DNA of 40,811 nt, from positions 1 to 40,811 of IMG/VR virus record IMGVR_UViG_3300020190_001908, one strand, 5' to 3'. This stretch comes from a virus. Below, one piece after another: positions 3,525-28,986 of this stretch. The translations under genes were made by a program, and so were the position numbers. Each line of letters begins with the position of its first letter. Position 1 is the stretch's first letter. The notes under the pieces were generated by a model. It made no database searches, was not told where the DNA came from, and was given only the letters and a program-made list of their open reading frames with translations.

Positions 3525-4154
3525 TTACATACCTCTCTTGCGGAAAAACATACCAGTGCGCCCCATGAAACCCTTGGGCATCGTGGAATATGCGCGAACA
3601 TTACCACTCATTTTACCATCATACTCGAAGCCGTTAGCCGCAAAAACACCAATCCAATAATCGATTGATCGACAATTCACATGATGGTGACCGGGCCACC
3701 CCGGAGGCGCTGCGGTGCATATAGCATAATTGCACAGACGAAAGCTATGCATGAAGTTATCGAGATATTTCTCCTCGACATGCTCAAGAAATTCGACAGA
3801 CCATGCTAGATCAAATTGAGTTGTCGGTAATTGTGATAAGCTTACAGGACCAATAGTATAGTCATGAATTGTGATATGATTGGTCTTGCGCTCTACATAC
3901 GGATCACCATCAATACCCCATGATTGAATATTAAGACTCTTGGCCAGCTCGATCATACCACCAGGCCCACAGCCGATATCAAGCATCGACTTGATACCAA
4001 AATTATCTCTAATTATCAGCAGCGCGCCAGGATCAAGATGAGTGCGATTTAGATGTCCGCCCAGATGTGCCGGTGTTACTTTCTCGGCGTCCAGCGATGA
4101 TGTGGCTTGGTTTTCTAAACCACTTTCCGTTGATGTTTGCATTGATATATTCAT
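3525..4154 (-). CDS. Class I SAM-dependent methyltransferase
   Basis: Residues 56-66 (SMLDIGCGPGG) are motif I of Rossmann-fold methyltransferases, and WGIDGDP is the acidic ribose-binding loop. DLAWSVEFLEHV (motif IV region) matches small-molecule and sugar methyltransferases of the Methyltransf_11/23 type. It heads the glycosyltransferase cluster, so methylation of a glycan is the likeliest role. An alternative ATG at 4142 is possible; AAAAGG abuts the ATG at 4154. The N-terminal 40 codons overlap the GIY-YIG gene in another frame, an unusually long overlap for this window. Confidence 0.78.
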   Translation of the reverse strand: MNISMQTSTESGLENQATSSLDAEKVTPAHLGGHLNRTHLDPGALLIIRDNFGIKSMLDIGCGPGGMIELAKSLNIQSWGIDGDPYVERKTNHITIHDYTIGPVSLSQLPTTQFDLAWSVEFLEHVEEKYLDNFMHSFRLCNYAICTAAPPGWPGHHHVNCRSIDYWIGVFAANGFEYDGKMSGNVRAYSTMPKGFMGRTGMFFRKRGM

Positions 4155-4506
4155 CCTTTTCTAACACGTCACGTCGAAATTGTTCTCTGACCTCAGAGTA
4201 ATTTACATCACCTTTGGTGGAATGTACAGATAAAATTTGGCGGTGAAACCTATCTTGCCCAAATTCTTTTACCAAAGCTTTAATCTCATCACCAGAACCA
4301 TAGTATGTTTTCCAATCACTTTCTTCGCGCTTGCGCTTTGTCGCATCTTTCTTTTTTCGCATTGACCAGAAATACTTTCGGCCCACATATTTCTTATCTG
4401 TTATTTTGTCGGTAATGAGATAAACAAACCCGTAGGATTTGCCGATATCACCGCTTGTAAACGGAACACCGTCAAATTCCCACGGGTTGTCATAATCTAA
4501 TATCAT
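4033..4506 (-). CDS. GIY-YIG family endonuclease-like protein
   Basis: Residues 25-44 carry the GIY-YIG core: GFVYL (26-30) followed by KKYVGRKYF (38-46), with the conserved Arg43. WKTYYGSGDEIKALVKEFGQDRF and the later Glu-bearing helix match phage GIY-YIG proteins of the Seg/homing-endonuclease group. It is freestanding and has no evident DNA-binding tail. The ATG at 4506 sits in the 3' arm of a perfect 10-bp RNA hairpin whose loop holds the ribosome-binding site GGGAG. The last 40 codons run in another frame through the start of the methyltransferase gene, and their composition is unlike the family. Confidence 0.78.
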   Translation of the reverse strand: MILDYDNPWEFDGVPFTSGDIGKSYGFVYLITDKITDKKYVGRKYFWSMRKKKDATKRKREESDWKTYYGSGDEIKALVKEFGQDRFHRQILSVHSTKGDVNYSEVREQFRRDVLEKDEYINANINGKWFRKPSHIIAGRRESNTGTSGRTSKSHSS

Positions 4507-4531
4507 AGACGATCTCCCTTAATCGTCTATG
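4504..4531 (-). promoter_or_regulatory. Translation-control hairpin over GIY-YIG start
   Basis: In the minus-strand RNA, CAUAGACGAU (4531-4522) pairs perfectly with AUCGUCUAUG (4513-4504). The 8-nt loop UAAGGGAG contains the zinc-ribbon stop codon and the Shine-Dalgarno of the GIY-YIG gene, and the start codon AUG is the last three bases of the stem. Homing endonucleases of T4 are known to be silenced by hairpins over their ribosome-binding sites, so this is probably a translational off-switch. Confidence 0.7.
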
Positions 4532-4725
4532 TATTCCTCATCTTCATCCTCGTCGTCATCATCTAGATCAAGATGCTCGCCGCAGAATGGACAATACTCT
4601 GGTGTATAAGAAACACCATCTTGATCGCTAGAATAGATTAGAATAAATTCAGCATCACATGATGGGCATGTGATTTCATCTTCTTCCTCGTAATCAAGCT
4701 GCGCGGACTTTAGTCGCTTCTCCAT
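4519..4725 (-). CDS. Zinc-ribbon protein with acidic tail, 68 aa
   Basis: Two CxxC pairs, Cys20/Cys23 (ITCPSC) and Cys45/Cys48 (EYCPFCG), form a classic four-cysteine zinc ribbon, followed by an Asp/Glu-rich tail (residues 52-66). The ATG at 4725 follows a strong AGGAGG by 9 nt and overlaps the end of the NrdB gene by 32 bp. The role is unknown; such phage proteins may be nucleic-acid mimics or regulators. Its last four codons form the 5' arm of the hairpin controlling the next gene. Confidence 0.8.
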   Translation of the reverse strand: MEKRLKSAQLDYEEEDEITCPSCDAEFILIYSSDQDGVSYTPEYCPFCGEHLDLDDDDEDEDEEYIDD

Positions 4726-5920
4726 TTGAGTATGCCTCCTCCCAAGTGCCAGTGAGACCTGCAACCTCATATTCGGTCACGCGGTTCTCAAAGAAGTTGG
4801 TGTGATCAGCACCATTAAGCACCCATTCGAGCCAGGGCAGAGGATTGTCCTTCACCTTGAAGTTAGGCTTAAGACCCAGCTGTAAGAGGCGCCTGTCCGT
4901 TATATAGCGAATATAAGACTTTACCTCATCAGCTGTCAGACCATTGACTTCACCCATTGCATATGCAAGATCAACAAACTTGTCCTCAAGACGAACGGCC
5001 TGTCTGGCCATCTCATAAATCTGCTGCTTAAAGTCATCATTGACAATTCGCGGATGCTCGGCGCAATACGTTCTAAAGAGAAGCGCATTTCCTTCGACGT
5101 GAATACTTTCATCACGAATTGACCACTCGACAACCTTACCCATACCCTTCATCTTACCAAATCGCTGGAAGTTCAGAAGCATGACGAAAGATGCGAATAG
5201 AGCAACACCTTCATTGAATACCGACTTGGCCAATGCGAGACCCAGACCACTCTTGGTGCTGGTATCTGCTTCGGTCATAAAGTCAATCTTGTCGGCCATC
5301 TCTTTGTATTCCATGAAGGCCAGATAGACATCATCAGGTAGACCCAGCGTATCATTCAAAAGTGCATAAGCACGCTGGTGTACGCCTTCACGTGCGGCGA
5401 AAGAGCCGAGCATGTTTCGCACTTCATTATTCTTAAAGTAGGGCACGAACAAGTCATAATAGTTTTTACCGACGGCAACATCGGATTGGGTAAAGAGTCG
5501 CAAGATTTGGGTGACGAATTCCTTATCCGACCCCGCCATCTTTCCAGACTTCCAATCGGTGACATCTTCTCCAAGGTCAATTTCATCCTCGATCCAGTGC
5601 GCTTTTTCATGGCGCTGTGTAATCTCAACTGCCCAAGGATACTGGAAGGGTTTATATACCTTGGAGAATTCCAAGAGCCCACCGCGCTCCTTGACAAGCA
5701 GCTTATCGCCTTGCGCCAGCAGTTCAGTATATCCACCGATACGCTTACCATCGATGAAAATCTGCGGCACAGTATTTACCTTGTGCTGCTGATAGAATGC
5801 ATACCGAATCTCCTCATTATCCATGCGATCTTCGGTATATGTGAGACCTCTGGCCGTCAGCCATTCCTTTGCCTTTTCGCAAAATGGGCAGCCAGTCTTA
5901 GATACAATGCGAATATCCAT
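4694..5920 (-). CDS. nrdB: Class I ribonucleotide reductase beta, N-terminal glutaredoxin fusion
   Basis: The radical-generating small subunit of ribonucleotide reductase, 408 aa. Residues 1-75 are a glutaredoxin: redox pair CPFC (Cys11, Cys14) and the cis-Pro segment TVPQIFIDG. The rest is NrdB: Glu178/His181 (REGVHQRAY) with the radical Tyr185 at the expected +7, Glu237 (NEGV), and Glu271/His274 (DESIH). The Tyr and the carboxylate/His ligands indicate a canonical di-iron tyrosyl-radical enzyme. The built-in glutaredoxin should re-reduce the NrdA C-terminal cysteines, freeing the phage from host thioredoxin or glutaredoxin. The ATG at 5920 follows AGGGA 6 nt after the NrdA stop. Confidence 0.96.
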   Translation of the reverse strand: MDIRIVSKTGCPFCEKAKEWLTARGLTYTEDRMDNEEIRYAFYQQHKVNTVPQIFIDGKRIGGYTELLAQGDKLLVKERGGLLEFSKVYKPFQYPWAVEITQRHEKAHWIEDEIDLGEDVTDWKSGKMAGSDKEFVTQILRLFTQSDVAVGKNYYDLFVPYFKNNEVRNMLGSFAAREGVHQRAYALLNDTLGLPDDVYLAFMEYKEMADKIDFMTEADTSTKSGLGLALAKSVFNEGVALFASFVMLLNFQRFGKMKGMGKVVEWSIRDESIHVEGNALLFRTYCAEHPRIVNDDFKQQIYEMARQAVRLEDKFVDLAYAMGEVNGLTADEVKSYIRYITDRRLLQLGLKPNFKVKDNPLPWLEWVLNGADHTNFFENRVTEYEVAGLTGTWEEAYSNGEATKVRAA

Positions 5921-5925
5921 AGTCT

Positions 5926-7698
5926 TTATCCCTGACATGCAACGCACTCCTCTTGTGACTTATCTTGTGTCTCACTAATATCAATCAACTTATTACGCTC
6001 AACCTTTTTAGAAACATTCTCTGCGCGGTTAGATGATTCTGTACGCAAATAGTATAGACCCTTACATCCAAGCTTCCATGCTGCAAAGTGAACCTTATGC
6101 ATCAATGCGCGAGACTCACCAGCAGGGAAAAATAGATTGAGTGACTGGCCCTGGCAGATATACTTCTGACGATCTGCGGCCTGTTCAACAAGTTCCATCT
6201 GATCAATTTCAATAGCGGTGGCAAAAATACGCTTTTGATATGCGCTCAGGAAGTCCAGATGTTGAATGGAACCGCCATTAGTGATAATACTTGACCAGAC
6301 CTCATCCGTATCTTTACCGAGCATGGTGAGCAATTGCTTAAGGTATTCATTTTTGACCAGGTGAGAGCCAGCGCGAGTGCGATGAGTAAAAGCATTTGCC
6401 TTCCAAGGTTCGATTGAGGGTGAGCACCCATGAACAATTGAGCTGTTTGCATTGGGTGCAATTGCAATCAGATGTGCATTACGCATTCCCGTGCCAACCA
6501 TATCGGGCGCTTCACCACGCTCGGTAGCAAGAGAGCGAGACTCAGCGATAGCCTTCTCCTGAATATCTGCGAATATTTCTCGATTGATTTCCCGAGCTTC
6601 CGGGCTTCCAAATGGTACTCCACGCTGCTGATAATATGAATGCAGCCCCATCGCGCCAAGACCGAGCGACCTCTCGCGTTGCGCCGAGAAACGCGCGCGC
6701 GAAATCTCGTCCCCCGCATTCTTGATAAACACGTTCAGAACATTGTCCAGCATCCGAATCATGTCTCTGACGATATTGGAGTTCTTCCACTCGTCGTACT
6801 TCTCTAGGTTTAATGAAGATAGGCAACATACAGCGGTTCTTTCCTCGCTAGTTGGTAGATGAATCTCATTGCAAAGATTAGATCCATGAATTTTGAGACC
6901 AAGATCCTTGAGAGGCTGCGGCAGACTTGCATTTGCAGTATCAATAAAGTTTAGATAGGGCTCACCTGTGCGATAGCGCACCTCAAGAATGGTTTCCCAT
7001 AGCTTTCGGGCCCGCATAGTTTCACGTGCGGTACCATCATTTGGATCGCGCAAGGCCCACTCACTATCATTTTCAACAGCCCGCATAAATTCATCTGTGA
7101 TATTGACAGCATGATGCAGATTAAGACACTTACGATTTACGTCACCAGTAGGTACACGAATGGTGAGAAATTCCATGATATCAGGATGCGACACGTCAAG
7201 ATAAGCGGCATAAGAACCCTTGCGCGTCTTACCCTGACGATATGCTGTCATATCAGAGTCGACCGTATGCAGAAATGGAATTGGGCCGGGCGCGACATCA
7301 GAAACAGAGCGTACAGATGACCAGTGACCACCCACGCCCCCACCCTTGACAGAGAGCCAGCGTAGCTCGGCTGTGTGATCAATCAGACCCTTTAGAGTAT
7401 CAGGCACATATGTCAGAAAGCACGAAATAGGAAGTGCCTTGACTCGTTCACCTGGTAGTGTTGCATTTGACAGCACTGGCGAAGAATACATGAACCACCC
7501 ATTTGAGGCTGCATCATATAACCTTTGAGCAAGTTCCATATCACCATCAGAGAATGCAACCGCCGCGCGAGCGAAAGACTTCTGCGGTGTATCTTCATTC
7601 TTGCGACAATAATAGTCACGTAGCAGGGTGAGAGAAAACTCTGAAAGTAATGCGTCACGGGAAGTGTCAATAGACACACCCAGGTGGTCAAGCAGCAT
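5926..7698 (-). CDS. nrdA: Class I ribonucleotide reductase alpha subunit, short form
   Basis: The catalytic subunit that reduces ribonucleotides to deoxyribonucleotides. NLCNE (Asn274, Cys276, Glu278) is the catalytic loop, Cys93 and one of Cys291/Cys292 are the active-site redox pair, and GLYYLRT holds the tandem tyrosines of the radical path. The C-terminus ECVACQG ends with the Cys585/Cys588 shuttle. At 590 aa it is much shorter than the 750-760 aa of E. coli or T4 NrdA, and no N-terminal ATP-cone is visible, so dATP feedback inhibition is probably absent. The ATG is preceded by GGAGG. No intein or intron interrupts it. Confidence 0.96.
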   Translation of the reverse strand: MLLDHLGVSIDTSRDALLSEFSLTLLRDYYCRKNEDTPQKSFARAAVAFSDGDMELAQRLYDAASNGWFMYSSPVLSNATLPGERVKALPISCFLTYVPDTLKGLIDHTAELRWLSVKGGGVGGHWSSVRSVSDVAPGPIPFLHTVDSDMTAYRQGKTRKGSYAAYLDVSHPDIMEFLTIRVPTGDVNRKCLNLHHAVNITDEFMRAVENDSEWALRDPNDGTARETMRARKLWETILEVRYRTGEPYLNFIDTANASLPQPLKDLGLKIHGSNLCNEIHLPTSEERTAVCCLSSLNLEKYDEWKNSNIVRDMIRMLDNVLNVFIKNAGDEISRARFSAQRERSLGLGAMGLHSYYQQRGVPFGSPEAREINREIFADIQEKAIAESRSLATERGEAPDMVGTGMRNAHLIAIAPNANSSIVHGCSPSIEPWKANAFTHRTRAGSHLVKNEYLKQLLTMLGKDTDEVWSSIITNGGSIQHLDFLSAYQKRIFATAIEIDQMELVEQAADRQKYICQGQSLNLFFPAGESRALMHKVHFAAWKLGCKGLYYLRTESSNRAENVSKKVERNKLIDISETQDKSQEECVACQG

Positions 7699-27813: not shown

Positions 27814-28122
27814 GGGTATAATGTTCTCGTTTTTAGGTAGTTCATCAGTTTCTAGTTTAGCATTGTATCCTGTGATCATCTCATTATCAGGTTCATAGGT
27901 AAAAAGAATATTGCTTGCAGCGATGCGAATATTCTTATTTATAGTAAATGGAATATAGTCTGTTATTCCGACGGAGGGCGCACCTGAGCTATTAGTCATC
28001 CCAACCAATAGCCCAGGATATGCAATTTCCCATGCATATGCTATAGTATTATAGCGCGCATGGCATACTATATCTTCGCCTGTGATTAGCTTGAGACCAA
28101 TCACAGGCCATTCGCGTGACAT
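27799..28122 (-). CDS. Conserved T4-like phage protein, 107 aa (Sm-like?)
   Basis: Begins REWPVIGLKLITGEDIVCHA and ends ILFTYEPDNEMITGYNAKLET. Cyanophage-type T4-like phages carry short proteins with this opening (KLxTGEDI) and closing (EPDxxxxxxYN), and the pattern resembles an Sm-like beta barrel. No function is known to me. The start overlaps the endolysin stop as TAATG. Confidence 0.65.
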   Translation of the reverse strand: MSREWPVIGLKLITGEDIVCHARYNTIAYAWEIAYPGLLVGMTNSSGAPSVGITDYIPFTINKNIRIAASNILFTYEPDNEMITGYNAKLETDELPKNENIIPFTRK

Positions 28123-28950: not shown

Positions 28951-28986
28951 AATGAAAAATGGGGAGAGGGATTCCACCCTCTCCCC
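28951..28986 (-). terminator. Rho-independent terminator after hsp20
   Basis: On the minus strand GGGGAGAGGG (28986-28977) pairs perfectly with CCCTCTCCCC (28970-28961) around a 6-nt loop, followed by ATTTTTC. It lies 20 nt after the Hsp20 stop and directly before the ribosome-binding site of the 51-aa gene. Confidence 0.9.

Follow-up and report, generated by a model that had tools for sequence, protein, structure and literature searches.

The closest described systems fall into two groups. The endonuclease genes I-TevI and segB of phage T4 and mobE of phage Aeh1 lie in nrd or comparable operons and have a stable hairpin over the start; a late promoter inside the 5′ arm yields hairpin-free late transcripts on which the ribosome-binding site (RBS) is exposed (PMC2988022). 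The translationally coupled pairs f1 VII-IX, MS2 coat-lysis and rpmI-rplT combine a short stop-start distance with a strong Shine-Dalgarno (SD) sequence and an inhibitory structure that ribosomes can open; of the two accepted models of coupling, one has the upstream ribosome unfold structure at the downstream RBS (PMC12548453). The hairpin described here, at the start of a GIY-YIG nuclease gene, likewise covers an endonuclease start in an nrd operon, and likewise has a short stop-start distance, a strong SD and a structure that a ribosome is predicted to open. It differs from the T4 and Aeh1 cases in that the end of the upstream gene forms the 5′ arm, with the stop codon of that gene in the loop. 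It differs from the coupled pairs in that both arms are local and that stop and SD share the loop of one short hairpin; coupling is a prediction in this case.

The stretch of DNA analysed, hereafter the window, comprises positions 1 to 40,811 of the IMG/VR record IMGVR_UViG_3300020190_001908. On its minus strand a perfect 10-bp stem, CAUAGACGAU / UAAGGGAG / AUCGUCUAUG, runs from 4531 to 4504; as DNA this 28-mer reads CATAGACGAT TAAGGGAG ATCGTCTATG. The 5′ arm CAUAGACGAU (4522..4531) lies in the last codons of a small zinc-ribbon gene, which specify Y-I-D-D. The 8-nt loop UAAGGGAG (4514..4521) consists of the stop codon UAA (4521-4519) and the SD sequence GGGAG (4518-4514), and the 3′ arm AUCGUCUAUG (4504..4513) terminates in the AUG of the GIY-YIG gene (4506-4504). 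An earlier note had described this stem at the same place, with GGGAG in an 8-nt loop, the AUG at the stem end and the zinc-ribbon coding end as 5′ arm. All of this is confirmed on the minus strand, and the zinc-ribbon stop falls within the loop.

The upstream gene of the operon encodes a fusion of glutaredoxin and NrdB, the small subunit of ribonucleotide reductase (4694..5947, minus strand, given as the longest ORF with a GTG start). The N-terminal glutaredoxin domain lies within the same ORF (PF00462 at 14-70, PF00268 at 97-369). It is followed by the zinc-ribbon gene (4519..4725, minus strand), whose start was chosen by a GGAGG SD inside the nrdB end. Its 68-aa product has an acidic tail and gave only weak zinc-ribbon matches in profile searches. 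The GIY-YIG gene (4033..4506, minus strand) encodes 157 aa and belongs to the SegE family (PF19835, E=1.9e-41; phrog_447, E=7.8e-49). The PF19835 match is a full-length family match of 141.6 bits (cut-off 25) over residues 9-125, and the catalytic residues FVY, Y40-G42, E105 and N122 are invariant across 19 family members. The GIY-YIG ORF shares 122 nt (4033-4154, minus strand) with the next ORF, a methyltransferase (3525-4154, from its first ATG). Many phage records name the phrog_447 GIY-YIG protein ‘NAD synthetase’, among them NC_015287 SSSM7_239 (L122) and NC_048802 HWC58_gp184 (L121). The name has apparently been passed on from record to record in error, as those proteins match the PF19835-type GIY-YIG.

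T4 SegE belongs to the PF19835/phrog_447 family, to which the window protein is a full-length match; SegE has 205 aa rather than 157. Its gene, a proven homing endonuclease gene, lies between inh and uvsW (PMC2988022), whereas the window gene follows nrdB. T4 denA (endonuclease II) is also a GIY-YIG gene just downstream of nrdB, as in the window, but in sequence DenA falls in a different GIY-YIG subfamily: it does not match PF19835, and its only match is to the general GIY-YIG model. Orthology to DenA was therefore rejected, the shared place having no further support in sequence. A search of PDB chains with a profile of the window family returned none except I-TevI, at E=0.59. A SegE-type GIY-YIG member follows nrdB in approximately 61 of the 80 contigs retrieved by NrdB alone, several of the others being short, and copies at other genomic places occur in Moby and S-SSM7. 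Because a family member follows nrdB in most relatives, the window nuclease gene is a stable neighbour of nrdB and not an obvious sporadic insertion. The gene belongs to the GIY-YIG family, but its description as a freestanding homing endonuclease is unproven, given the place downstream of nrdB kept in most relatives and the lack of a recognised DNA-binding domain in the window protein.

Folded in isolation, the 28-mer reaches -13.5 kcal/mol (z = -6.3), a stability found in 0/200 shuffles; folding also permits an extra U-G pair, leaving 6 nt in the loop. Opening the GIY-YIG start costs 20.6 kcal/mol, against a maximum of 17.5 kcal/mol among the 48 other called gene starts. Of random window ATGs, however, 9/300 match this cost and 5/400 fold as well locally. 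The rarity of the structure within the window is therefore modest evidence, and conservation outweighs the single sequence. Perfect stems of at least 10 bp with a 3-12-nt loop number 3 in the window, compared with 0.4 +/- 0.5 in 40 shuffles. A GC-rich perfect 10-bp hairpin, GGGGAGAGGG...CCCTCTCCCC, at 28961-28986 (minus strand) is followed by ATTTTT and is an ordinary intrinsic terminator. There is also a perfect 10-bp hairpin at 28078-28108 (minus strand), about 13 nt inside the ORF after the endolysin gene, these two overlapping at TAATG. At the GIY-YIG start a terminator reading was ruled out, as the stem has no U-tract after it.

The hairpin is present in 22/22 close IMG/VR contigs (L001-L021, L027), whose nucleases are 81-100% identical. 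The set resolves into about nine hairpin variants, which form the nine rows of an 11-pair table; pairs were counted anchored at both stem ends because MAFFT alignment misplaced the arms owing to loop indels. The 5′ arm is almost invariant in the clade (CATAGACGAGG; CATAGACGATT in the window), and the 3′ arm occurs as ATCGTCTATG, CTTCGTCTATG, CCTCGTTTATG, CCTCGTGTATG and CCTCGTCTATG. Variation is confined to three pairs: pair 5 is G-C, G-U or a G-G mismatch, pair 10 is U-A, G-U or G-C, and pair 11 is U-G or G-C. By this table the loop is 6 to 11 nt long, with the SD always inside it or at its edge. Despite the indels the AUG forms the stem end in every variant and the stem energy holds between -13.5 and -17.9 kcal/mol. 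A check for covariation of the arms was proposed in the earlier note. Pairing is kept, through G-U pairs and in one lineage, that of the window, through changes on both sides of the stem; that such changes are limited to this lineage is due to the coding 5′ arm, which hardly varies. In one subclade (L007, L012, L013 and L014) the stem contains the G-G mismatch. Overall, the proposal of an RNA hairpin that sequesters the RBS and AUG is supported by pairing conserved in all close relatives.

The inverted repeat is absent from relatives outside the clade. A scan with the exact hairpin pattern matched two near-identical contigs and no others, and a search for further clade haplotypes returned only contigs of the existing set. 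In the nearest outgroup (L049, L050), TAT ATA GAA GAG stands at the place of the 5′ arm, without a hairpin. The cultured Methylophilales phage Melnitz (L039) has the nuclease family member after nrdB and the gene order of the window; it was considered as the nearest cultured counterpart and rejected, its gap being +2 and the hairpin absent. Between the zinc-ribbon stop and the GIY-YIG start lie 12 nt in the window, and 11-14 nt across the clade. Overlapping stop and start codons are the usual layout of coupled genes. Outside the clade the zinc-ribbon and GIY-YIG genes overlap or nearly so in many relatives (-1, -4, 0, +2), again without a hairpin; gaps of -7 to -32 in distant relatives were left out, the automatic starts probably being wrong. 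Relatives with a gap of 15 (L061, L073, L108, L110) also have no hairpin, so the gap alone does not require one.

We consider it probable that the conserved mRNA hairpin shuts the nuclease start, and that translation of the GIY-YIG gene depends on translation of the zinc-ribbon gene within the nrdB operon. When no ribosome is on the zinc-ribbon gene, the 10-11-bp stem (about -14 to -18 kcal/mol) would keep the AUG and block entry of the 30S subunit. Because the loop contains the SD, full pairing extends only to the AUG and to some of the 30S landing site. A ribosome ending the zinc-ribbon gene would sit at the stop codon in the loop and cover the 5′ arm; the stem would then be melted and GGGAG exposed, and the same ribosome or a following 30S subunit could initiate at the AUG, 12 nt on. 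In constraint folding, masking the 5′ arm freed the SD but the AUG only in part, and a mask over the whole ribosome footprint freed both, in support of the earlier suggestion that zinc-ribbon translation would open the hairpin. The two genes lie in a single operon and a single direction, with the stop near the downstream start. Coupling is favoured because opening by the upstream ribosome could be modelled, because the gap is 11-14 nt and because other relatives have the overlapping layout of coupled genes. The hairpin, the conservation of its pairing and its place relative to stop, SD and AUG were computed here, and its opening is a modelled result. We infer that the hairpin represses the nuclease in vivo and that coupling is the main release.

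The principal alternative, which we regard as unlikely, is a temporal switch of the T4 type, in which early and middle transcripts that read through nrd carry the folded hairpin, whereas those from a late promoter in the 5′ arm lack it, which restricts the nuclease to late expression. This is the established design of I-TevI, segB and Aeh1 mobE (PMC2988022), and the earlier note had likened the window to T4. The likeness holds for a predicted, conserved hairpin of -13.5 kcal/mol that sequesters the start, but not for the promoter, no recognisable late promoter being found in the window 5′ arm. The best match there, AATACATA, is correctly placed at the base of the arm, but it agrees with TATAAATA at only 6/8 positions, a level reached by 30% of random 60-mers and hence that of chance; against CTAAATAG it also scores 6/8, reached by 18% of random 60-mers. 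By comparison, a list of 50 T4 late sites includes 32 perfect ones and nine with A at -13, and most others deviate at a single position (PMC2988020). Moreover, AATACATA overlaps the conserved Tyr-Ile codons, and its conservation is therefore no evidence of a promoter.

T4-type late transcription probably exists in the window clade, because a 155-kb relative that carries the window hairpin encodes a gp55 homologue (E=5e-19) and because TAAATA-containing promoter-like motifs occur elsewhere in the clade. The motif CTAAATAG is enriched upstream of genes in that relative (L129-L136 of G001) together with the window (7 against 0.3 expected), and is possibly the late promoter of the clade; TTGACA, of the -35 type, is likewise enriched in the same sequences. 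Outside the clade, in L034, L107, L207 and L033, TATAAATA, CTAAATA or AATAAATA starts a hairpin whose end is the nuclease AUG, and in L107 and L207 the nuclease gene follows an ORF with zinc-ribbon cysteine pairs. On these motifs, some members of the nuclease family outside the clade show the T4 design, and the T4 analogy therefore suits such relatives better than it suits the window. A weak, non-consensus late promoter within that arm of the window hairpin is unlikely, and it and coupling are not mutually exclusive.

A stable hairpin at a gene junction of an operon could instead be an element of RNA stability or processing, protecting or marking the end of the nrd message, with any effect on translation incidental. 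Such an element would not need the AUG at the stem end or the SD at the loop, yet this register is kept in all variants despite the indels, and we think this reading improbable. Still less probable is chance complementarity, maintained through shared ancestry and the protein-coding constraint on the 5′ arm. About 3% of random window ATGs equal the start in opening cost, and the 5′ arm does encode a conserved YID(E)D tail. However, nrdB fourfold sites are invariant at only 22/115 among the ten hairpin haplotypes and 45-50% identical in distant pairs, and between subclades separated to that degree the non-coding 3′ arm stays complementary through indels and substitutions. Outside the AUG, 5/8 positions of the 3′ arm never vary, which at the nrdB fourfold-site rate has a binomial probability of about 0.009. 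Synonymous sites of the 5′ arm are also without variation. The codons TAC ATA GAC are free of synonymous substitutions across 16 distinct sequences, and the GAG that follows is invariant except in the window, when most upstream D and E codons vary. Lastly, a DNA palindrome acting as operator or nuclease site with no RNA role would fit the perfect 10-bp inverted repeat of the window and the fact that I-TevI regulates its own expression at a DNA site ahead of its gene (PMC2988022), but it is hardly credible given that G-U pairs in three relative groups break the symmetry of the DNA and not the pairing of the RNA, and that loop length changes in others.

Translational coupling thus remains our preferred reading, and the window hairpin probably adds to the known class of RBS-sequestering, coupling hairpins. 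Its biological reason would be that expression of the nuclease is kept low and linked to the nrd operon. In this group of environmental T4-like phages the hairpin offers a well-conserved, readily testable case of a sequestered start codon. A hairpin alone is no ground for naming such genes homing endonucleases. It is one of several start-codon hairpins within a single nuclease family. We tentatively suggest that the nrdB-adjacent nuclease family of T4-like phages may have gained such hairpins repeatedly and by different routes: as late-promoter hairpins in some lineages, and here with a 5′ arm embedded in the last codons of the adjacent gene, so that the nuclease would be linked not to a late promoter but to translation of that gene. 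The occurrence of both late-promoter hairpins and a coding-embedded hairpin suggests that selection has favoured silencing of the nuclease on nrd read-through transcripts on more than one occasion.
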